Shown here piece after piece: positions 1 to 44,052 of a stretch of 44,052 bases of DNA. Position 1 is the first letter of the stretch. Every line of letters starts with the position of its first letter. Under the pieces are notes generated by a model. The model searched no databases, was not told the origin of the DNA, and saw nothing but the letters and a program-made list of their open reading frames with translations. Source of the stretch: an uncultured Bacteroidota bacterium. GTDB lineage: Bacteria; Bacteroidota; Bacteroidia; AKYH767-A; JABDAW01. A program made the translations under genes and the position numbers. The DNA lies in the NCBI GenBank assembly GCA_903911135.1, contig CAIWCG010000214.1, positions 1 to 44,052 of the forward strand. Reading direction: 5' to 3'.

Positions 1-58
1 GACCTGGTTCAATCAATCGGCGACCTGGTTCAATCAATCGGCGACCTGGTTCAATCAA
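1..58. repeat. 21-bp tandem repeat array A1 (cut by window edge)
   Basis: Two full copies and most of a third of a 21-bp unit beginning GACCTGGTTCAATCAA lie head to tail and identical. The array starts at or before the window edge, so its real length is unknown. It ends about 150 bases before the first gene. It shares only its period with the six other arrays in the window. Confidence 0.9.
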
Positions 59-206
59 TGAGGTCTCCGCCACTCCATTTTTAAGTATAAAAAGTCCCGT
101 TTCCCGTATAAAACTCCCCCAAGCCTGCCTTTTTGCATGTTTGATAACAAAACTGTTTTTGCATGAGGAATATGATTATTGAATAAGAAAATATTATTTT
201 CGCGCC

Positions 207-4177: not shown

Positions 4178-4429
4178 GTCGGGGCAAGGGGAAATTTTGT
4201 CGGGGCAAGGGGAAATTCGGTCGGGGCAAGGGGAAATTTGGTTGGGGCAAGGGGAAATTCGGTCGGGGCAAGGGGAAATTCGGTCGGGGCAAGGGGAAAT
4301 TCGGTTGGGGCAAGGGTAAATTCGGTTGGGGCAAGGGGAAATTCGGTCGGGGCAAGGGGAAATTCGGTCGGGGCAAGGGGAAATTCGGTTGGGGCAAGGG
4401 GAAATTCGGTCGGGGCAAGGGGGAATTCA
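4178..4429. repeat. 21-bp tandem repeat array A2, 12 units
   Basis: Twelve contiguous 21-bp units start with GT(C/T)GGGGCAAGGGGAAA and end with a variable TTT, TCG or TTG trinucleotide. Purine-rich on the plus strand and G-rich, it differs sharply from its AT-rich surroundings. It occupies the region between the divergent kinase and beta-synthase genes. Because 21 is divisible by three, several frames stay open on both strands (VGARGNS on the plus strand), but there is no gene-like sequence outside the array. The rest of 3909-4594 is AT-rich and holds only the two promoters. Confidence 0.95.
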
Positions 4430-8371: not shown

Positions 8372-8390
8372 TGAAGGCGGGTTTTTAATG

Positions 8391-8600
8391 GGTGAAAGCG
8401 CAATTGATTTTGGTAAAAGCGCAATTGATTTTGGTGAAAGACATTTGGATTTGGTGTAAATCAAAATGGTTTTAGGCTAAATCAAAATGGTTTTGAGTGA
8501 AAACCAAATTGATTTGGGCCAAATCAAAATGGTTTTAGGCTAAATCAAAATGGATTTGAGTGAAAGCGCAATTGATTTGGGTGAAAGCCAAATGGATTTT
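8391..8600. repeat. 21-bp tandem repeat array A3, 10 diverged units
   Basis: Ten consecutive 21-bp units start 20 bases after the patatin stop. Units carry either AAATCAAAATGGTTTT or AAAACCAAATTGATTT (or GCGCAATTGATTT) as core. The first two are near reverse complements of each other, so the core occurs in both orientations while the flanking G(G/T)TG and TTTG positions stay fixed. Neighbouring units can pair into hairpins. Confidence 0.9.
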
Positions 8601-8642
8601 GGGGTTTACGGGTTGAGTTTAAGCTGTGGTGAGTTCGGTTGG

Positions 8643-8852
8643 GTGTAAAAGGACTTCTTTTTTGGCAAAAAAGACTTCTTGATGGGCAAAAAAGAAGTCT
8701 TGATGAGTGAAAAAGACTTCTTGGTGGGCAAAAAAGAAGTCTTGGTGAGTGAAAAAGAAATCTTGATGGGCAAAAAAGAAGTCTTGGTGAGTGAAAAAGA
8801 CTTCTTGGTGGGCAAAAAAGAAGTCTTTTTTGGTGAAAAGGAAATCCTTTTT
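8643..8852. repeat. 21-bp tandem repeat array A4, 10 units with flipped cores
   Basis: Ten 21-bp units, 42 bases after array A3. The constant part is A-rich (GGCAAAAAA or AGTGAAAAA) and ends in TTG(A/G)TG. The core alternates between AAGACTTCTT and AAGAAGTCTT, which are exact reverse complements, so adjacent units can form perfect 10-bp stems. Two A-rich segments per 42 bases fall on the same helical face. Confidence 0.92.
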
Positions 8853-15833: not shown

Positions 15834-15896
15834 ATTTTTTTAATTTGTTAATATATTTTTTATTTAGTCTATTCTCTGGGTATATATAAAAACAGC

Positions 15897-16046
15897 GGCG
15901 TGAGCTAATCTTGCTAATCATCTAAGAGGTTCGACCAAGAACCCGTGATACGATTAAACAAATGCTCACGCCTGTCGTGAGCGTCTTTGCTTTATCCAGT
16001 ATCACTTTAAAATTGGTCGATTTCTTAGATCGGATTGCTAAACGCC
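15897..16046 (-). ncRNA. Long imperfect hairpin, candidate structured RNA or leader
   Basis: Successive perfect helices stack along one axis: GGCGT/ACGCC (closing), AATC/GATT, ATCTAAG/CTTAGAT, TCGACCAA/TTGGTCGA, GTGATAC/GTATCAC, and the tip GCTCACG/CGTGAGC with a 5-base loop. They are separated by internal loops of 2-7 bases, the largest being GAACCC opposite TTTAAAA. A consensus promoter on the minus strand lies about 50 bases away, so a transcript from it would carry the hairpin and continue into the zinc-ribbon gene. The strand is therefore tentative. It resembles a 6S-type rod in shape only; an element-like DNA hairpin is the alternative. Confidence 0.55.
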
Positions 16047-16095
16047 TATATTTTATATGTCTTAATTCTACATAATCTTAATTATTTTATCGCCA

Positions 16096-16122
16096 CAAAA
16101 TTACTGATTATTTATAAAACAA
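16096..16122 (-). promoter_or_regulatory. Minus-strand promoter upstream of the long hairpin
   Basis: TTG (16122-16120), 16 bases, then TAATTTTG (16103-16096) on the minus strand. A transcript from here would begin about 45 bases before the hairpin and give a leader of roughly 260 bases for the zinc-ribbon and barrel genes. Confidence 0.55.
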
Positions 16123-16200
16123 GAGATAGTACCAATAAAACATACCTATATATATAGTATCTTTTCATCTTTAAAAAAGAAACTTTTGGAGGCTTTTGTT

Positions 16201-16228
16201 TTGATGTTATATTTATTGTTTAGCTTTG
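16201..16228 (+). promoter_or_regulatory. Consensus promoter upstream of array A5 and the FN3-like gene
   Basis: TTG (16201-16203), exactly 17 bases, then TAGCTTTG (16221-16228). It is among the best matches in the window. It points toward a 35-codon ORF, array A5 and the FN3-like gene at 16694, so the array may be transcribed. Confidence 0.65.
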
Positions 16229-16237
16229 CGGCTCTAA

Positions 16238-16345
16238 ATGGATACAAATAACCAAATATCATTTATAAGCCCAATTGCGATCCCTAACAAAGATTTCACT
16301 TCCGCCCAGGTAGTAATAGTCTTTGTGGCATGCAATCAGGATTAA
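16238..16345 (+). CDS. Possible 35-residue peptide or gene remnant
   Basis: ATG lies 9 bases after a consensus -7 box and opens 35 codons (MDTNNQISFISPIAIPNKDF, then a short hydrophobic VVIVFVAC segment). It ends 50 bases before array A5. It could be a leader peptide, or the surviving start of a gene whose remainder was replaced by the array. I recognise no family, and chance cannot be excluded at this length. Confidence 0.3.
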   Translation: MDTNNQISFISPIAIPNKDFTSAQVVIVFVACNQD

Positions 16346-16395
16346 ATCATACTACATTTTACTTTCGTCAAGCGTCAGATGTCCGGATTTTGAGT

Positions 16396-16642
16396 TTGGA
16401 AAGTCGTTTTCCCTACTGGAAAAGTTGTTTTTCCTACTGGGAAAGTCGTTTTCCATCTTGGAAAATCATTCCGCCAGTTGGGAAAGTCATTTTTCCACCT
16501 TGGAAAATCGTTTTCCCGTCTTGGAAAGTCATTTTTCCACCTTGGAAAGTCATTCCGCAAGCTTGGAAAGTCGTTTGCCATCTTGGAAAGTCGTTTTTCC
16601 TACTGGGAAAGTCATTTTTCCTACTGGGAAAATCATTTTCCA
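16396..16642. repeat. 21-bp tandem repeat array A5, about 12 units
   Basis: About twelve units of 21 bp, with one of 20 bp near 16563-16582, built on TTGGAAAGTC(G/A)TTTTCC plus a variable 5-base end (CTAC, ATCT, ACCT). Each unit is itself quasi-palindromic (GGAAA...TTTCC) and can form a hairpin. The array ends 52 bases before the FN3-like gene. The 20-bp unit changes reading frame, so it is not under selection as coding sequence. Confidence 0.93.
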
Positions 16643-16693
16643 AACACCGAATTCAATTATTAAAGTATATATAAACAATTAAAAACAAAGATT

Positions 16694-17356
16694 ATGGGAA
16701 CGAAAAAAAGAGAAATCAAGAAATCGAACAAGAAGGCTAAGCCGGCTACAAACAAGGCGAAATTTTTTACCGTAGGCACTAATGCTGCTGCAAGTGCGAA
16801 TGTAAAAGTGGCTGCTGCGGGTGCCATTGTAGTAACAGGCTCGAATGACATGGGCACCGCCATTACTGCCCGAACAAATGCAAATGTGGTTTTGCACTCG
16901 GCGGTACTCGCTGAAAATGCGAAGAACAAAACGGGCTGCGAAAAATTTGATTCTTTGGTAGTGGTGATGATGCAGGAATACCCTAATGCTCCTGACACTT
17001 GGGAGGGTTATGGTATGGATGTTACGACTGGAGAAATCCATGATGCAACCACTCCGGGAGAGGTGTTGCATGGCTCCATGAGTCAGGGAGATTTTCAGGG
17101 AACGGCAGATATTCATCATGATCCTTTGGAGGCGGCTGATGATTATTTGGTGTTCGTTACCAAAGGCAATCCTACCCTTCCTGATTGTATTTATATTGAT
17201 GTTACAAACAATGATGAATCTACTGCGAAAAGCAATACTACTGTCAGGATTCCTAATGATTATCTGAATGTACCTTTATTCTTTAAACTTCAAGCTCATA
17301 ATGCAGCCGGTTTGGGTCCGAAAAGTCCTCCTTTCGGCGGAAGACCAATCAATTAA
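16694..17356 (+). CDS. FN3-like cytoplasmic protein downstream of array A5
   Basis: This 220-residue protein has no signal peptide. A lysine-rich start (MGTKKREIKKSNKKAKP) and an alanine/asparagine/threonine-rich segment (about 30-70) lead into LAENAKNKTGCEKFDSLVVV and WEGYGMDVT. The C-terminal half is strand-rich and closes with FFKLQAHNAAGLGPKS, which matches the last strand of a fibronectin type III domain (usually VxAxNxAGxGxxS). The same plan occurs in the 34698-35357 protein, and both lie directly downstream of a 21-bp array. It resembles the small, unsecreted FN3-containing proteins of Bacteroidota, for which I know no function. Confidence 0.8.
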   Translation: MGTKKREIKKSNKKAKPATNKAKFFTVGTNAAASANVKVAAAGAIVVTGSNDMGTAITARTNANVVLHSAVLAENAKNKTGCEKFDSLVVVMMQEYPNAPDTWEGYGMDVTTGEIHDATTPGEVLHGSMSQGDFQGTADIHHDPLEAADDYLVFVTKGNPTLPDCIYIDVTNNDESTAKSNTTVRIPNDYLNVPLFFKLQAHNAAGLGPKSPPFGGRPIN

Positions 17357-27303: not shown

Positions 27304-27428
27304 TGACGGGGAATATTATTTTCTAAGTTTCATGATGGAAATAAATCCTCATAAATTTTAACATTTAAAGCCCCCAACACGAATTTTTGCCTGTTCAAAG
27401 CGTCCTGACAAGCTAAAACTCGATTTTT

Positions 27429-27617
27429 TATGCCATTGGGTAATAACCTTGAGGCATATTCTACGCAGTTTATGCCATTGGGTAATAACCTTGGGGCATA
27501 TTCTGCGCAGTTTATGCCATTGGGTTATAACCTTGGGGCATATTTTAGGCAATTTATGCCATTGGGTAATAACCTTGAGGCATATTCTGCGCAGTTTATG
27601 CCATTGGGTAATAACCC
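27429..27617. repeat. 42-bp tandem repeat array A6, 4.5 units
   Basis: TATGCCATTGGG recurs at 27429, 27471, 27513, 27555 and 27597, exactly 42 bases apart (twice the 21-bp period). The fifth copy is truncated. Within each unit TATGCC and GGCATA bracket a GGT-AATA-ACC mini-stem, so every unit can form a hairpin of about 30 bases, separated by a spacer TTCT(G/A)CGCAGTT. It lies in the convergent gap between the ABC ATPase and porin-like genes. Confidence 0.93.
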
Positions 27618-35763: not shown

Positions 35764-38700
35764 TTATTGTACACTGACTTTGAGTTTACTTGAGATACCG
35801 TCTTTGTCGAGTATCACGATGTAAATGCCTTTGGCGATGTTGTCGAGATTCATTTCTAATTGGTTGTCACCTTCGACAGTGTTTCCATCCAGTGTCATCA
35901 CTGTACGACCTGCGAGGTCAGTCAAGCGGATGGAGAATGGTACACTTTCTTTTGTAGAGCTGAATTTAACAGTAGCGTGATCGCTGGCTGGGTTTGGATA
36001 TACGCTGAACTCGTTTGCTGCAGTAGCACCTCTAGGACCGCTGGTAGTGAAGTTTTGGATAGCGGAGAAGTTAGAGAATGAGGATGCAGTGGAGTTACAA
36101 TTGCTTCTTACGTTCCAGTCGTAGGTAGTATTTGCGGTGAGTGCACCTGGGGCAAATACACGGCTGGTAGTAGGTGCAAGGACAGCGAATACTGACCAAG
36201 TGGTAGTTCCGTGAACTCTCCACTGAACTCTGTAGCTGTATGCGCAAGGAACGGCAGCCCAGCTGATGGTAGCACCTGTAGAAGTGATTGCTGAAGAAGC
36301 TTCACCTGTTGGAGTGTTACAAGCTTGGGTTATTACTTGCGAAGAAGTAGAAGTACAGACACCGCCGAGAGTAGCTGTTACGGTGTATGTTCCTGGAGCG
36401 GAATTGATGATGCTTTGAGTGGTAGCACCTGTTGACCAAGTCCAAGCGTCGAAGTTACCGGTAGCAGTTAATGTATCGGTTACTGGGCCAGGGCTGGCAG
36501 GAGAAACTACAGGACATAACACGGTGTAAGTCAAGGTATTGATAGCCAAAGAGCTGCAATTAGTAGTAGTGAATGTGTTGAATGCGATTGGGTAACCTGC
36601 ATTCAATACGTTAGCGCAATTTGGTTTCACTTGCCAGTAGTAAGTGGTGTTGGCAGTCAAGCCAGTGATGGTTACGGAGTCAGGTGAGCCACCGTTTGGA
36701 GTAGTCACTTGAGTGAACGGACCTGTTTGGCTAGTAGCCCAACGAACTGTGTAGTTAGTTGGAGTTCCACCACCGCTTACCCATCTTACTTTAGCAGTAG
36801 TATTGGTAATGTTTGTGGTAGTTATGCTAACCACTTCAGGGCACTGAGAAGCTTGAACACAGATATCATCAATTGCCATATCGTTACCACCACCTGCAGA
36901 AACTGCGTCGAAGGCAAGAACGATGTTAGAAGTGTTTCCATAAGGAGACAAGTCAATAGCCCAAGTAGTCCAAGTTGGAGTTGAGTAGCTTACCAAGTAA
37001 CGATAAGCGGTACGCATGAAGGTGAATGAAGAACCACCGTTGGTAGAGATGCTCACCTTAACGGAGTCATTAGAACCTGAATGGCCATTTTCATTTGCGA
37101 AGCTCCAAGACACAACTGGATCGGCAACACCAGTGAAGTCAAGAACTGGAGATTGCAATCTAGAGCTTGTTCCGGCACCCAAAGTAGAAGATGAGAACAC
37201 GAACATGTTAGCAGACTGAGGAGTCAAGCCGGTGTTCATAGAATTCGTTACTGTCCAATTACCCACACCGCTTAATTGAGATACTGTCCAACAATCATTA
37301 GTGATGAAGTTAGTGCAATAAGGAATTGCAATTTGTCCAGCACTTGGTTGAGCTATTGAAACTGAAGCGCTAGAAGTACAATTGTTGGCATCCTTAACCA
37401 CTACGGTATAAGAACCAGCAGTTAAAGAACTTAGGGTATTGGAAGCTTGATAGTTTGCACCACCATCTTTCGAGTAAGTATATCCAGGAGTTCCACCGGT
37501 GGCTGTAATTGTATCGGAACCATTATTACCACCGTTGCAAGTAGCACTAGTAGTAGAACTTGTGAATGAAACAGCTGTAGGTTGAGACACTGCAACGTTT
37601 GAAGCAGCGCTTGTGCAACCGTTTACATCTCTAACAACCACTGAATAAGTACTAGCAGACAAGCCACCTAAGATATTGGAGCTTTGGAAAGTGCCACCGT
37701 TATTGCTTGAGTAGTTATAAGGAGAGTTACCACCTGCAGCAGTTACGGTAATTGTTCCGTTGGTACCACCATTACAAGAAGTATTAGCAGAAACACTTGT
37801 GAAAGTTACGGCAACAGCTTGAGAGATAACAACATTTCCAGCAGCGCTAGTACAGTTGTTAGCATCTTTAACCATAACCGCGTAAGTACCTGCGGCTAAT
37901 GCTGTAAAGCTATTAGAAGATTGGTAAGTACCACCGTTATTATTCGAATAAGTGTAAGGAGATGTACCACCAGCACCAGTAACCGTTATCGAACCATTTG
38001 AACCACTGTTACAACTTACATTCGTACGAGAAGAAGTAAATGTTACGGCAGAAGGCTGAGAAACAACCACGTTAGAAGTATTGCTTACACAGTTGCTTGC
38101 ATCCTTAACGATTACTTGATAAGTACCGGCAACCAAACCTGTAAATACGTTACCACTTTGGTAAGTGCTACCGTTATTATTGGAATAAGTGTAAGGTGAA
38201 ATACCACCTGAACCAGTTACTGTAATAGTACCATTGCTTCCACCATTACAACTTACATTAGTACGAGTAGAAGTAAATGATACATTAGCCACCTGATTTA
38301 ATGTTACATCAGTAGGAGAACTTGTACAGTTGTTATGGTCTTTAACGATGATTGTATAAGTATCTACTGTTAAACCACTAAATACATTTGAAGATTGGTA
38401 ATTGTTACCACCATCATTTGAATAAGTATAAGCAGTCGTTCCACCAGTTGCGCTTACAGTAATACTACCTACACCTGCACAACCAATATCAACTTGAGTA
38501 GTTGAGAATGTAACAGCATCAGGTTGAGAAACTGTAACGTTTACACTTCCAGTAGTACAGTTATTTGCATCTTTAACAACGATTGCATAAGTACCTGCAG
38601 GTAAATTGTTGAACGTTACACCTGCTTGATAGCTGCTTCCACCATTATTTGAATATGTATAACCACCAGCACCGCCAGAAGCACTTACTGTGATACGTCC

Positions 38701-41700
38701 ATTGTTACCACCATTACAACTTACATTCAAATGTGTTGTTGTAAATGTAATGCCAGATGGTTGAGAAATAGTAACTGAGGCAGTTGAAGTACAAATGCTG
38801 CCGTCTTTTACAACTACAGAATAATTACCTGCAGACAAGCTAGCAAAAACATTACTTATTTGGTAGTTTGATCCACCATTATTTGAATAAGTGTATGAAC
38901 CTGCACCACCAGAAGCAGTAACTATAATTTGACCATTATTGCCGCTATTACAACTAATATTTGTTTGATTAATTACAACACCAATTGAAGTAGGTTGTGT
39001 AATTGAAATATTTGCTGGTGTGCTAACGCAATTATTACCATCTTTCACAATGACGGAATATGTTCCTTGAATTAATCCAGAGATAATATTTGATCCTTGG
39101 TAAGAATTTCCACCATCATTTGAATATGAATATGAACCAACACCACCTGTTGCAGTAACAGTAATTGTTCCATTGTTTCCATTATAACATGAAACATTGG
39201 TAGAAGTTGAAGTAAAAGTAACAGCTGAAGGTTGAGTTATAGAAACATTAGTTGAAGAACTTAAACAGTTGTTTGCATCCTTAACCACAATTGTATAACT
39301 ACCTGATCCAATATTGCTAAATGCCGCGCCTGATTGATAATTTCCACCTCCGTTATCTGAATATGTATAAGGAGATGTTCCACCGGCTGCAGATACGTTA
39401 ATTGAACCATTAGATCCACCATTACAAGCAACATTAATGTTAGTTGTTGAGAATGTAACAATTGCTGGTTGTGTAACGACAGCATTTGAAACAGAACTCA
39501 AGCAATTATTGGCATCCTTAACGATAACAGGATAAGTACCTATTGATAAATTATTGAACACAGCCGATAATTGATAGCTACTACCATTGTTATCTGAATA
39601 ATTATATGGAGTAGCACCACCTGATGCGGTAACAACAATACTACCATTATTACCACCATTGCAACTAACACTATTTACAACAGGTGTAAAGGCAAGAACC
39701 GCAGGAGTTGTAATAATAACGGATGAATTTGCTATACAATTATTAACATCTTTAACAACAACTGAATAATTACCACCTGTCAAATTACTAAATACTGTTG
39801 AACCCTGATAATTATTTCCTCCATCATTTGAATAAGAATAACCAGAGGTTCCACCTGTAACTGAAGTTATTGTTATGCTACCGTTATTATTGTTGTAGCA
39901 AGTAGTAACATTAATTTGCGATGTTGTAAAGGTAAGTATAGCTGGTTGAGTCAACGTAATATCATTAGATACTGCAGTACATCCATTGGCATCACTAACA
40001 GTTACATTATATGTTCCAATTTGTAAACCTGAAAGTGCTGAAGTAGTAGCAGAATTGCTCCAATTATAAATAAATGGTGAAGTTCCACCAGAAACACTAG
40101 GAGAAACAGACCCACTAGCATTACCATTACAAGTCAGATTAAAGCCGATTATATTTACTGTCAACAATTGTGGTTGATTTAAATTAATACTTGAAGATGA
40201 AGTACATCCATTGGCATCAGTAACTGTAACAACATACGTTCCAGAAGATAAACCATTTTGAACTGAAGTAGTTGCAAGATTACTCCAGGAATAACTGAAA
40301 CCACCTGTACCACCAATCTGACTTGCTGTAATAGTTCCTGTTCCATTTCCATTACAAGTTAAATTTGATCCAGTCACACTGGCTACAAATGTATTTGGTT
40401 GTGTAAGTTGGATACTATTTGTTGTTGTACATCCATTGGCATCTGTAACTGTTAAATTATAAGTGCCTGCACATAATCCACTTGGATTTTGGGATGTGGA
40501 TGTAAAGCCACTTGGTCCTGACCATGAATAACCGTATCCGAATGTTCCACCTGTAGCTGAAAAGCTGATGCTACCATTGCACGCTCCATTGCAGGTTACA
40601 TTATAGCCTCCATTATATTGATGTGCTCCAATACTCAATGTCGTCAATACATTTGGTTGGGTCAATTCAATATTGGTTGTTGTTGTACAGCCGTTGGCAT
40701 CTGTAACTGTTAAATTATAAGTGCCTGCACATAATCCACTTGGATTTTGGGATGTGGATGTAAAGCCACTTGGTCCTGACCATGAATAACCGTACCCTAA
40801 TGTTCCACCTGTAGCTGAAAAGCTGATGCTACCATTGCACGCTCCATTGCAGGTTACATTATAGCCTCCATTATATTGATGTGCTCCAATGATCAATGTC
40901 GTCAATACATTTGGTTGGGTCAATTCAATATTGGTTGTTGTTGTACAGCCATTGGCATCTGTAACTGTCAAATTATAAGTGCCTGCACATAATCCATTTG
41001 GATTTTGGGATGTGGATGTAAAGCCACTTGGTCCTGACCATGAATAACCGTATCCTAATGTTCCACCTGCAGCTGAATAGCTGATGCTACCATTGCACGC
41101 TCCATTACAGGTTACATTATAGCCTCCATTATATTGATATGCTCCAATGCTCAATGTCGTCAATACATTTGGTTGGATCAACGTAAAATTACTTGATGCA
41201 AAACAACCATTATTGTCTGTTAATGTAACATAATATGTTCCAATTGGCAATCCACTTTGACTTGAATTTGTATTATTATTATCCCAAATATATGTAAAAG
41301 GTGAAGTCCCACCAACTGCAATTGCCGTAACGGAACCGTTGTTATCACCGTTACACAATAAATTAGTTCCACTTGTGACGGCAACCAAAACATCAGGTTG
41401 GGTGATACTAATACTTGTAGTTGATGTACATCCGTTATCATCTGTTACAATAACAGAATAAACTCCAGCAGACAAGAAATCAATATCCTGAGTATTGTAT
41501 AAACTATTATTCCAATCAAATGAATAATTACCTGTACCTCCAGAAACAAACAAAGTAATATTTCCTGAAGCATCGCCATTGCAAAGCAAATTATAACCAG
41601 TAGCATTAGAAATAAGAAGATCAGGCTCTGTAATTGAAACGATTGAAATTGCAACACAATGATTATTATCTGTAATAGTTACAGAATATGATCCAGAAGA

Positions 41701-44052
41701 AAGCCCTGATTGAATAGCTGATGTAGAATTATTATTCCAATGATATGAATATGGAGAAGTTCCCCCTGTTTGATTTGCAATTACTACTCCAGTACTATTA
41801 TGGTAACAAGACAAATTACTTCCACTTGCATCAGCTACTAAAATATTTGGTTGTGTTAAAATTACTGTTGAACTTGAAGAGCAACCATTAAAATCAGATA
41901 CAGTTACAATATAAGTACCAATTGAAAGACCTATTTGAGATGCAACAGTTAAACTATTGTTCCAAAGATAACTATATGGCCCTGTTCCTCCAATAGCAGA
42001 TGCTATTACAGAACCGGAGTTATCATTGTTACATAATAAATTTGAGCCTACAACACTAGATTCCAGAATAGCAGGTTCAGTAATTGTAACACTACTAATT
42101 GCAACACATAGATTGGCATCAGTGATCGTTATGTAATATGTTCCTACAGACAAATTATTTCTATTATAATTTGTCGAATTGTCATCCCAAAGAATAGCAT
42201 ATGGTCCTGTACCACCATTTACTATTACTTGAACTGTACCAGTTCCATTTCCATTACATGTCAAATTAGTTCCACTTGTAGTTGCAGTTAAAACGTCAGG
42301 TTCGGTTACAGTAATGCCTGACATGATTGAACAACCATTATTATCTGTAATAGTAACCTCATAAACACCTGCAGCTAACCCCGAAATATTTGAATCAAAA
42401 GAGCCAGTATTCCATTCAAAATAATAAGGCGAAGTGCCACCAGATACACTATTAACACTTGCAGAACCTGTATAATTACCATTACATGTTAAATCAATTC
42501 CAGAGGTGGAAATAATAATTGCATCTGGTTGAAGAATAGTAGAAGATGTTGAAACTGAACATCCATTATCATCAGTAATAACTACTGAATAGTTTCCTGC
42601 CTCGAGATTATTAATGTCGGATGAGGTATTTGCATAATTATTAGGTCCAGTCCAATTGTAATTGACACTTGGATAATCTCCGCCTGAAACTGAAAGGGAA
42701 ATAGATCCAGAATAATCGCCATTGCAAAGCAAATCAACCCCACTTGCCACAACTGATAAAACATAAGGTTGGGTTAAAGTAATTGAAGTTGTAGCAATTG
42801 GACAATTATTAATATCGGTAACAGTTACTGAATAAAAACCAATACTTAAATTATCGATGTTTTGAGTTATTGCTGAATAGCTATTTGGTCCATTCCAAAC
42901 AAAAGAATATGGAGCGGTGCCACCAGTTACACTTAGGTCAATCAGACCGTTGCTTAATCCATTACATGAAATATTATACCCACCATTATAAGCAAATGCC
43001 GTTGCAACTGGAATTAAAACACCAGGTTGTGATATTACAACAGATACAGTAGCAGTACAATGGTTCGCATCCCTAACCACCACAGTATAAGTTCCAGCTG
43101 TAATATTATTAAAATTAGGTGATATTTGATAGTTTGAGCCATTATCCTTAGAATAAACAAGCGTACCAGTACCACCAGAAGCCGAAACACTTATAGATCC
43201 ATTACTTCCACCGTTACAAGTAACATTATTATGTGAAGTACTATAAATAATTTGCAATTGTTGAGTAAGAGTTACATCAACTATTGGGCTTAAACACGCA
43301 AGGAAATCTCTAACTCGTAGATGATATGTACCAGCAAACAATGAATTAAAAACTTGAGATGCCTGAAAATCATTAAATGCTGTATCTTGCATACCAATTG
43401 CATCTATTTGATACCTATAAAAACTATGTCCACCTGAGGCTGTCATTATTATTTGTCCAGTGTTATCTCCATAGCATCCAATGATATTTGTCAAAGTATA
43501 ACCTGATATATCCATAGGAGCAGGTTCGCTTAAGGTAATAGAATGTGTAGTTGTACATCCATTTGCATCTATTACAACTACATTATAAGTTGAATCAAAT
43601 GGAGATATTGTTCGCCCAGATCCCCAAAGTCCAGATAATACACTCGAGTTCTGATAATTATTACCATTATCGCTTGAATATTGATATGGTGTTGAACCTC
43701 CGCTTGCTGTTACCGTATTTACACCATCATGTCCATTCCAACATGTTAAATTATAACCAGAAATAATAGTTTGTACAGAAGAAGCAGCTAAAACTGTCGG
43801 CTCGGTCAAGGTAATCGCATTTGTTATCGTACAGCCGTTCGCATCGGTAACAGCCAGGTTGTAGGTGCCTGCTCTAAGACCACTTGGATTCTGGCTGCTT
43901 GAACTGTAGCTGTTTGGGCCGCTCCAGCTGTAGCTGTAACCCGTTGATCCGCCTGTTGCACTGTAGCTGATGCTGCCGTTGCTCGCTCCATTGCAGGTGA
44001 TGTTGAAGTTGTCTGCATATTGGTGTGCGCTGATGCCTACACTGCTCAATAC
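35764..44052 (-). CDS. Giant SprB-repeat T9SS adhesin (N-terminus beyond window)
   Basis: At least 2,760 residues; the frame is open to the window edge and the first visible residues are already mid-repeat, so the start lies outside. I count 28 SprB-type repeats of 75-86 residues, each with a pattern like VTCNGGSNGSITVTASGGTSPYTY, then AGTYxVxVxDANxC, then a short linker. Three are almost identical (40393-41166). A MAM-like adhesion domain follows (VSWSFANENGHSGSNDSVKV, DDICVQ), then two fibronectin type III domains (GLTANTTYYWQVKPNC and ALTANTTYDWNVRSNC). The end is a T9SS sorting domain (EFSVYPNPASDHATVKF, LDNIAKGIYIVIL). SprB in Flavobacterium is a moving gliding adhesin; a role in gliding or attachment is inference. 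A terminator follows. Confidence 0.93.
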   Translation of the reverse strand, partial: VLSSVGISAHQYADNFNITCNGASNGSISYSATGGSTGYSYSWSGPNSYSSSSQNPSGLRAGTYNLAVTDANGCTITNAITLTEPTVLAASSVQTIISGYNLTCWNGHDGVNTVTASGGSTPYQYSSDNGNNYQNSSVLSGLWGSGRTISPFDSTYNVVVIDANGCTTTHSITLSEPAPMDISGYTLTNIIGCYGDNTGQIIMTASGGHSFYRYQIDAIGMQDTAFNDFQASQVFNSLFAGTYHLRVRDFLACLSPIVDVTLTQQLQIIYSTSHNNVTCNGGSNGSISVSASGGTGTLVYSKDNGSNYQISPNFNNITAGTYTVVVRDANHCTATVSVVISQPGVLIPVATAFAYNGGYNISCNGLSNGLIDLSVTGGTAPYSFVWNGPNSYSAITQNIDNLSIGFYSVTVTDINNCPIATTSITLTQPYVLSVVASGVDLLCNGDYSGSISLSVSGGDYPSVNYNWTGPNNYANTSSDINNLEAGNYSVVITDDNGCSVSTSSTILQPDAIIISTSGIDLTCNGNYTGSASVNSVSGGTSPYYFEWNTGSFDSNISGLAAGVYEVTITDNNGCSIMSGITVTEPDVLTATTSGTNLTCNGNGTGTVQVIVNGGTGPYAILWDDNSTNYNRNNLSVGTYYITITDANLCVAISSVTITEPAILESSVVGSNLLCNNDNSGSVIASAIGGTGPYSYLWNNSLTVASQIGLSIGTYIVTVSDFNGCSSSSTVILTQPNILVADASGSNLSCYHNSTGVVIANQTGGTSPYSYHWNNNSTSAIQSGLSSGSYSVTITDNNHCVAISIVSITEPDLLISNATGYNLLCNGDASGNITLFVSGGTGNYSFDWNNSLYNTQDIDFLSAGVYSVIVTDDNGCTSTTSISITQPDVLVAVTSGTNLLCNGDNNGSVTAIAVGGTSPFTYIWDNNNTNSSQSGLPIGTYYVTLTDNNGCFASSNFTLIQPNVLTTLSIGAYQYNGGYNVTCNGACNGSISYSAAGGTLGYGYSWSGPSGFTSTSQNPNGLCAGTYNLTVTDANGCTTTTNIELTQPNVLTTLIIGAHQYNGGYNVTCNGACNGSISFSATGGTLGYGYSWSGPSGFTSTSQNPSGLCAGTYNLTVTDANGCTTTTNIELTQPNVLTTLSIGAHQYNGGYNVTCNGACNGSISFSATGGTFGYGYSWSGPSGFTSTSQNPSGLCAGTYNLTVTDANGCTTTNSIQLTQPNTFVASVTGSNLTCNGNGTGTITASQIGGTGGFSYSWSNLATTSVQNGLSSGTYVVTVTDANGCTSSSSINLNQPQLLTVNIIGFNLTCNGNASGSVSPSVSGGTSPFIYNWSNSATTSALSGLQIGTYNVTVSDANGCTAVSNDITLTQPAILTFTTSQINVTTCYNNNNGSITITSVTGGTSGYSYSNDGGNNYQGSTVFSNLTGGNYSVVVKDVNNCIANSSVIITTPAVLAFTPVVNSVSCNGGNNGSIVVTASGGATPYNYSDNNGSSYQLSAVFNNLSIGTYPVIVKDANNCLSSVSNAVVTQPAIVTFSTTNINVACNGGSNGSINVSAAGGTSPYTYSDNGGGNYQSGAAFSNIGSGSYTIVVKDANNCLSSSTNVSITQPSAVTFTSTSTNVSCYNGNNGTITVTATGGVGSYSYSNDGGNSYQGSNIISGLIQGTYSVIVKDGNNCVSTPANISITQPTSIGVVINQTNISCNSGNNGQIIVTASGGAGSYTYSNNGGSNYQISNVFASLSAGNYSVVVKDGSICTSTASVTISQPSGITFTTTHLNVSCNGGNNGRITVSASGGAGGYTYSNNGGSSYQAGVTFNNLPAGTYAIVVKDANNCTTGSVNVTVSQPDAVTFSTTQVDIGCAGVGSITVSATGGTTAYTYSNDGGNNYQSSNVFSGLTVDTYTIIVKDHNNCTSSPTDVTLNQVANVSFTSTRTNVSCNGGSNGTITVTGSGGISPYTYSNNNGSTYQSGNVFTGLVAGTYQVIVKDASNCVSNTSNVVVSQPSAVTFTSSRTNVSCNSGSNGSITVTGAGGTSPYTYSNNNGGTYQSSNSFTALAAGTYAVMVKDANNCTSAAGNVVISQAVAVTFTSVSANTSCNGGTNGTITVTAAGGNSPYNYSSNNGGTFQSSNILGGLSASTYSVVVRDVNGCTSAASNVAVSQPTAVSFTSSTTSATCNGGNNGSDTITATGGTPGYTYSKDGGANYQASNTLSSLTAGSYTVVVKDANNCTSSASVSIAQPSAGQIAIPYCTNFITNDCWTVSQLSGVGNWTVTNSMNTGLTPQSANMFVFSSSTLGAGTSSRLQSPVLDFTGVADPVVSWSFANENGHSGSNDSVKVSISTNGGSSFTFMRTAYRYLVSYSTPTWTTWAIDLSPYGNTSNIVLAFDAVSAGGGNDMAIDDICVQASQCPEVVSITTTNITNTTAKVRWVSGGGTPTNYTVRWATSQTGPFTQVTTPNGGSPDSVTITGLTANTTYYWQVKPNCANVLNAGYPIAFNTFTTTNCSSLAINTLTYTVLCPVVSPASPGPVTDTLTATGNFDAWTWSTGATTQSIINSAPGTYTVTATLGGVCTSTSSQVITQACNTPTGEASSAITSTGATISWAAVPCAYSYRVQWRVHGTTTWSVFAVLAPTTSRVFAPGALTANTTYDWNVRSNCNSTASSFSNFSAIQNFTTSGPRGATAANEFSVYPNPASDHATVKFSSTKESVPFSIRLTDLAGRTVMTLDGNTVEGDNQLEMNLDNIAKGIYIVILDKDGISSKLKVSVQ
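40393..41166 (-). repeat. Three near-identical 258-bp repeats inside the adhesin
   Basis: The linker word ATTTGGTTG recurs at 40393, 40651, 40909 and 41167, exactly 258 bases (86 codons) apart. The three units differ at only a few positions, while all other repeats in the gene have diverged greatly. The protein unit contains VTCNGACNGSIS and WSGPSGFTSTSQNP. The unit at the right window edge is a diverged relative of the same type. Confidence 0.92.

Follow-up and report, generated by a model that had tools for sequence, protein, structure and literature searches.

Tandem arrays of short repeats that precede a protein gene or follow a dedicated leader are known from several systems. In the type III toxin-antitoxin systems ToxIN, CptIN and TenpIN, tandem repeats lie between the promoter and the protein gene, and both the array and the protein vary between systems (PMC8860590). 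CRISPR arrays with a boxA leader present a boxA-like sequence (GTTCTTTAAAA / GTTCTTTGACA; the former is the boxA of the Legionella CRISPR leader) shortly upstream of a long untranslated array (PMC7862264). Iterons and variable-number tandem repeats are direct repeats spaced by about two helical turns, and their copy number changes by whole units. Each of these likenesses is found in the loci described here, the first of them at loci of the P1 type (the promoter being uncertain at P2 and others). We analyzed a 44,052-nt stretch of contig CAIWCG010000214.1 from an uncultured Bacteroidota bacterium of the class Bacteroidia; this whole stretch is referred to as the window. It carries an array of short units, A5, in front of the gene P1 and a second array in front of the gene P2. 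Comparison across the class showed that a leader, an untranslated array with a 21-bp period (in one family also 22 bp), and a gene for a predicted helical and FN3-fold protein form a conserved cis module.

This module differs from each of the systems above. Relative to type III toxin-antitoxin loci, it has no consistent terminator, its protein has a predicted FN3 fold instead of that of an endoribonuclease, and its units are shorter and more numerous. Unlike in CRISPR loci, the units are head-to-tail without spacers, there are no Cas genes, the unit varies by locus, and a co-directional protein gene stands behind the array. In contrast to iterons and variable-number tandem repeats, the arrays are not at a replication origin, their sequence is replaced, and they always front one gene family. 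The protein shares its modeled C-terminal fold with bacterial FN3 proteins (PF00041) but differs in its helical N-terminal half, its single FN3-like domain, and the array upstream of its gene. No family or defense model, phage or plasmid describes the pairing of array and protein. We did not find it in the literature on 21-bp arrays, FN3 and Bacteroidota either, although most subscription journals were outside this search and a prior description is possible; the module is apparently undescribed. Its conservation is unusual, since in a strictly placed array before one protein family the spacing is kept and the sequence is not.

Arrays upstream of FN3-like genes across Bacteroidia

A sequence-only reading of the window had proposed that an FN3-like gene follows A5 and that a promoter precedes the array, and this was borne out (Table 1). 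The gap between A5 and the open reading frame (ORF) of P1 is 51 bp, and the sole TAnnTTTG motif in positions 16101-16400 is the Bacteroidetes-type promoter-like TAGCTTTG at 16221-16228. Because this site stands upstream of A5, the array would lie in the leader of the P1 transcript. Beyond the promoter-like site, the leader is partly alignable with those of other homologues of the genus; a clear boxA core was not recognizable in it, though one is seen at other loci of the genus. Using Tandem Repeats Finder (TRF), A5 presented a period of 21/42/62 with 70-74% matches, some of its units being 20 or 22 bp long. The motif GGAAA...TTTCC, which had been claimed for every unit, is present in 9 of the 12. 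The second pair of array and FN3-like gene that had been noticed in the window is likewise real and lies on the minus strand; the position of the P2 promoter is uncertain. No signal peptide was seen by eye in P1 or P2, and no intrinsic terminator was found in the spacer between array and ORF of either gene.

Two such pairs in one window are weak evidence alone, because such an array stands no more than 450 bp upstream of about 18% of the genes of this genome (68/386). The genome comprises 3.8 Mb in 296 contigs, and its array statistics are based on a 727-kb sample in which TRF identified 110 arrays with a period of 21n and a length of at least 80 bp; other periods were rare. An array every ~6.6 kb, with no preference among tandem, divergent and convergent gaps relative to background, would be compatible with mere coincidence, i.e., with a genome so saturated with 21-bp arrays that any gene may have one upstream. 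The association was counted only at loci found by homology, and no statistic includes the FN3-like genes that were first spotted behind arrays (L011, L013:19289, L030, L034, L035, and L046). In the first set, 40 of the 43 loci presented an array of period 21n within 600 bp upstream, and 4/43 presented one downstream. Within the genus and without the two seeds, 15/16 homologues had an upstream array against a background of 17.6% (p = 7e-11).

Across the class, using one locus per genome, arrays were found upstream at 21/24 loci and downstream at 5/24 (the first set already included six of these 24 loci). Of the three misses, two have a period of 22 bp (22/44/66) instead and both belong to family f13, in which this period was found at L242, L248, L251, L254, L290, and L292; L253 has a 21-bp period, though it comes from the same genome (G191) as L248. 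Further paralogues had an upstream array in 18 of 22 cases (TRF alone: 16/22 upstream, 1/22 downstream). Among control genes of genomes with sparse arrays the corresponding count was 6/389, which differs strongly from the 16/22 of the family (Fisher p = 2e-19). Decayed arrays at L196, L205, and L082 were missed by TRF, and autocorrelation placed the lags 21/42/63 on top (z 5.5-9.5). Overall, about 75 of 83 distinct loci from about ten families of the class present a 21- or 22-bp-period array within 600 bp upstream, and about nine present one downstream. The exceptions include L006 and L135, which have no array, and L130 (genome G027), L245, and L291 (both G225), which have a 21-bp array immediately downstream. 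The association also holds where arrays are rare: one such array was found in 220 kb sampled from the closed genome G191, and an array leads 3/3 family genes examined there. Coincidence is refuted because the class-wide comparison shows the association, and we consider its probability negligible. The arrays sought upstream of homologues in other genomes were thus present in all three sets, which supports the earlier proposal of a dispersed family of genes led by variable arrays.

The proteins form a fast-changing family of ~220 residues, with ORFs mostly of 200-260 aa. Besides relatives in the same genome, homology searches found others in two congeneric species, in further families of Bacteroidia, and in freshwater and other Bacteroidota metagenome-assembled genomes (MAGs). 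By profile search, the family is present in 50 of the 395 genomes sampled from the class (about one in eight) and in 16 of 196 genera, with one to at least seven copies each, and no curated model was found for it. P1 and P2 had no meaningful match in Pfam, NCBIfam, PADLOC, or PHROGs. The Pfam fn3 model does not reach either protein, and no family member tested scored above the gathering cut-off of PF00041 (25), the best being the divergent member L248 (E 3e-4, 21.2 bits). P2 aligns clearly with the proteins of the G044 type, to which the P1 family is linked by hhalign (probability 77%, E 2e-5, 135 columns); by plain BLASTP, only a short stretch of P1 around NAAGL matches. The AlphaFold2 model of P2 (mean pLDDT 82) has a helical N-terminal half and a mostly beta C-terminal half, and the latter matches FN3 domains of the PDB in Foldseek (E 1e-5, probability 1.0). 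The P1 model, whose alignment consisted of P2-type rows, has the same layout but is weaker (mean pLDDT 63, ~80 in the FN3 part), and its C-terminal half also matches FN3. The earlier claims that both proteins are FN3-like and that they are related are in agreement with these results. The proteins are predicted to be of a cytosol-type, with helical and FN3 parts. FN3-like proteins of such shape are common "hypothetical" proteins in Bacteroidota, a circumstance that served as a lead and not as a test. Carriage as phage or plasmid cargo was rejected, as searches for phage or plasmid homologues gave no match.

Table 1. Positions of the two array-gene pairs and of the other arrays in the window
Feature	Position	Strand	Remarks
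Promoter-like site (TTTG ... TAGCTTTG)	16195..16228	+	From sequence; TTTG at 16195 or 16200
Leader segment	16229..16395	+	Includes stretch GCGATCYCTRACAARGATTTCACTTCCGC in common with paralogue L002
Array A5	16396..16642	+	12 head-to-tail units of ~21 bp
P1	16694..17356	+	ATG ORF, 220 aa; predicted helical N-half and FN3-fold C-half
P2	34698..35357	-	ORF, 219 aa; predicted helical and FN3-fold, P1's family
Second array, 5' of P2	35428..35643	-	TRF, period 21/42/63; sequence unrelated to A5
Orphan 21-bp array	4178..4428		No FN3-like gene; its unit found at two further sites of the sampled genome
Orphan 21/42/63-bp array	8389..8602		
Orphan 21/42/84-bp array	8664..8846		Its unit also in L065
Orphan 42-bp array	27427..27616		Between convergent genes
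End of another 21-bp array	1..59		Contig edge

Array turnover and transcription

Array sequences are unrelated between most paralogues. Non-homologous arrays were even found between homologous leaders and genes, at L071/L074 (two species) and at L138/L139 and L079/L084 (each from one genome). The close orthologues L202, L203, and L206 have kept the array, with an upstream identity of 0.83-0.91 vs 0.80-0.91 at fourfold sites, and the length change between L202 and L203 is exactly 42 bp. Since homologous leaders and genes hold unrelated arrays and orthologues keep theirs, sequence comparison indicates that the presence, side, and period of the array are kept while its sequence is replaced wholesale. 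Whole modules are also copied: L129 and L134 are recent copies with 93% identity in leader, array, and gene start, and their outer flanks are unrelated. L134 contains an in-frame TAG. It is possible, if rather unlikely, that the array is a cis leader that does nothing but tune expression, in which slippage would alter the number of units and with it translation or termination, and which the protein would never touch. The 5' position and the whole-unit copy change are consistent with this explanation, and a boxA would protect a long untranslated leader. However, it leaves unexplained both the near-constant period of 21 (or 22) bp in unrelated sequences and the wholesale replacement between conserved flanks.

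At seven loci of the genus (P1 type), the partly conserved leader between promoter and array ends in a GTTCTTTAAA-type sequence, and in G044 and related MAGs CGTTCTTTGACATATTGAAAA or a similar sequence stands ahead of the array; for comparison, the genome's own rrn leader carries AAAGTTCTTTGAAGTATTG. A boxA core, expected 0.02 times per locus, was detected ahead of the array at 7/9 loci of G044 and at 5/11 in other MAGs; it lies on the sense strand, 8-171 nt before the array. The sequences ahead of the array thus resemble the boxA of rRNA leaders, an element of Nus antitermination, in at least two families. Transcription through the array is likely at these loci because the boxA-like core precedes it. 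The sequence-only reading had placed the array in the transcript leader; this agrees with the P1-type order and with the boxA loci, but not with L007 and L008, two relatives from the same genome with a promoter-like site between array and gene. For this reason, some arrays may lie outside a leader. A leader role for all arrays of the genome was rejected, as gene-less (orphan) arrays occur in all gap types and a boxA core was found near 0 of ~97 of them.

We also evaluated what the arrays might encode or fold into. Coding arrays (heptad peptides) were rejected on the grounds of stops in all frames of several arrays and of the 22-bp periods of family f13, which are not a multiple of 3; open frames through arrays are about as frequent as expected, and five arrays have none. 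Hairpins, which had been put forward as a feature of the module, do not unite its members: palindromic units are in excess in the window's genus (p = 2e-6) and not elsewhere (p = 0.23), and stems with one mismatch contain G-U in 92 and A-C in 98 cases, i.e., without RNA strand bias. A sense-RNA hairpin was therefore rejected as a common feature.

These observations bear on the possibility that the array is a functional RNA partner of the protein. By analogy with type III toxin-antitoxin systems, the transcript of a boxA leader would be bound or processed into units that inhibit or direct the protein, and a new RNA-protein module would be at hand. The order leader-array-gene and an array sequence specific to each paralogue would fit, and boxA is known to serve other long untranslated RNAs, rRNA and CRISPR arrays among them (PMC7862264). 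We nevertheless consider this explanation unlikely, given the lack of excess of G-U over A-C and of palindrome enrichment outside the genus, the absence of even a loose terminator match in 24 of 36 spacers between array and gene, an FN3 fold instead of an endoribonuclease, and the lack of a PADLOC match. Following published criteria (PMC8860590), a type III toxin-antitoxin array was rejected: there is no consistent terminator, and a ToxN-type endoribonuclease fold was not found, the proteins having FN3 matches and no family match.

Gene-less arrays in the genome of the window

The arrays of the sample are intergenic, and their distribution over tandem, divergent, and convergent gaps (31/25/16) is proportionally similar to that of all gaps of at least 100 bp (104/71/48). 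We estimate that the genome contains several hundred gene-less 21-bp arrays, which form families that share units; many contigs break inside arrays. A homologous array elsewhere was found for 40 of the 110 sampled arrays. When the whole genome was searched with 13 FN3-linked arrays, each yielded 0-4 extra arrays of the same unit, located by ordinary genes and without a family gene. In G044, one trans array was found for seven FN3-linked arrays, and for this reason the spread of gene-less arrays is a trait of the window's genus and not of the module. A general network of trans copies was likewise rejected, being present in the window's genome but reduced to one for seven in G044. The hundreds of 21-bp arrays present in some of these genomes may derive from the module.

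Some orphan arrays of the genus resemble MITE-like elements (miniature inverted-repeat transposable elements) in that they lie between terminal inverted repeats of ~70-170 bp. Long terminal inverted repeats were found on at least one side of 28/97 orphan arrays and on both sides of 8/97, in contrast to 0/13 FN3-linked arrays of the same genome. MITE-like terminal inverted repeats with CCCGCTATCCGCTGTAGCC...GCTACTATCGGGGCTA are present at L048:8870-9228, L018:106-465, and on both sides of L042:17613, and the flanks of L022 and L018 carry CCTTACAGGTCGGC...GCCGTCCTGTAAGG, a further short dispersed palindromic or repeated element. The same-unit orphans C118 and C129 have 754 bp around the array in common, at 84% identity. 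An array that serves as a recombination or insertion platform, with cassettes that move and with leader and gene flanking a hot spot for array swaps, would account for the inverted repeats around orphan arrays, for clean replacement between homologous flanks, and for the duplication of whole modules into unrelated flanks. We regard such a platform as quite improbable: the 13 FN3-linked arrays of this genome are free of these repeats, the arrays of G044 and G191 are nearly confined to the gene family, and the protein has no transposase-like feature.

Possible function and other features of the window

We tentatively favor, with less than even confidence, the possibility that the protein binds the array in front of its gene as a cognate tandem site. 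Three observations suggest that the protein recognizes its own array: the pairing in cis is strict, the spacing stays almost invariably at about two helical turns, and paralogues diverge quickly. Each unit would hold one protomer, with neighbors about two turns apart, and the target would be either the DNA or the leader transcript as it emerges; the array-bound protein may in this way control the expression of its own gene. Paralogous pairs of protein and array would diversify fast, avoiding each other's arrays, and in the window's genus arrays copied elsewhere would act as extra, possibly selfish, sites. The constant side of the array, the period of decayed arrays, array replacement, boxA, the absence of a terminator at P1 and P2, the trans copies of FN3-linked units, and the lysine-rich N-terminus of P1 were also counted in favor of this binding-site interpretation.

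Several observations weigh against it. No nucleic-acid-binding domain is recognizable in the protein, and the usual ligands of FN3 domains are proteins or glycans. With a 22-bp period, units of B-DNA do not stay on one face. A multi-site network is not general, since trans arrays are rare beyond the genus, and the strict pattern detected no boxA in several families or at P1. Moreover, the same sequence diversity could arise if tandem repeats turned over fast and neutrally. Our confidence is limited because the 22-bp variant misfits the one-face picture and because an RNA partner, a tuning leader, and a recombination cassette remain as explanations. The broader proposal, which we find doubtful, is that each member of the multicopy helical-FN3 family is specific for the 21- or 22-bp array of its own leader, that a genome would hold mutually insulated pairs, and that in some lineages arrays have escaped as hundreds of gene-less copies. 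If the proteins do recognize their own arrays, they would constitute natural orthogonal nucleic-acid-binding pairs in unstudied environmental Bacteroidia.

Finally, we searched the window against Rfam without finding a match. Upstream of the P1 promoter, positions 15895-16050 form an imperfect long inverted repeat (GCTAATCATCTAAGAGGTTCGACCAA ... TTGGTCGATTTCTTAGATCGGATTGC), also without an Rfam match, and a short dispersed palindromic or repeated element (AAACATACCTATATATATAGTATCTTTT) lies at ~16132-16165. Positions 35764-44049 (minus strand) contain an ORF of 2761 aa with internal tandem repeats of 258 bp and 237 bp; its product is probably a repeat adhesin that is secreted and carries a C-terminal sorting domain.
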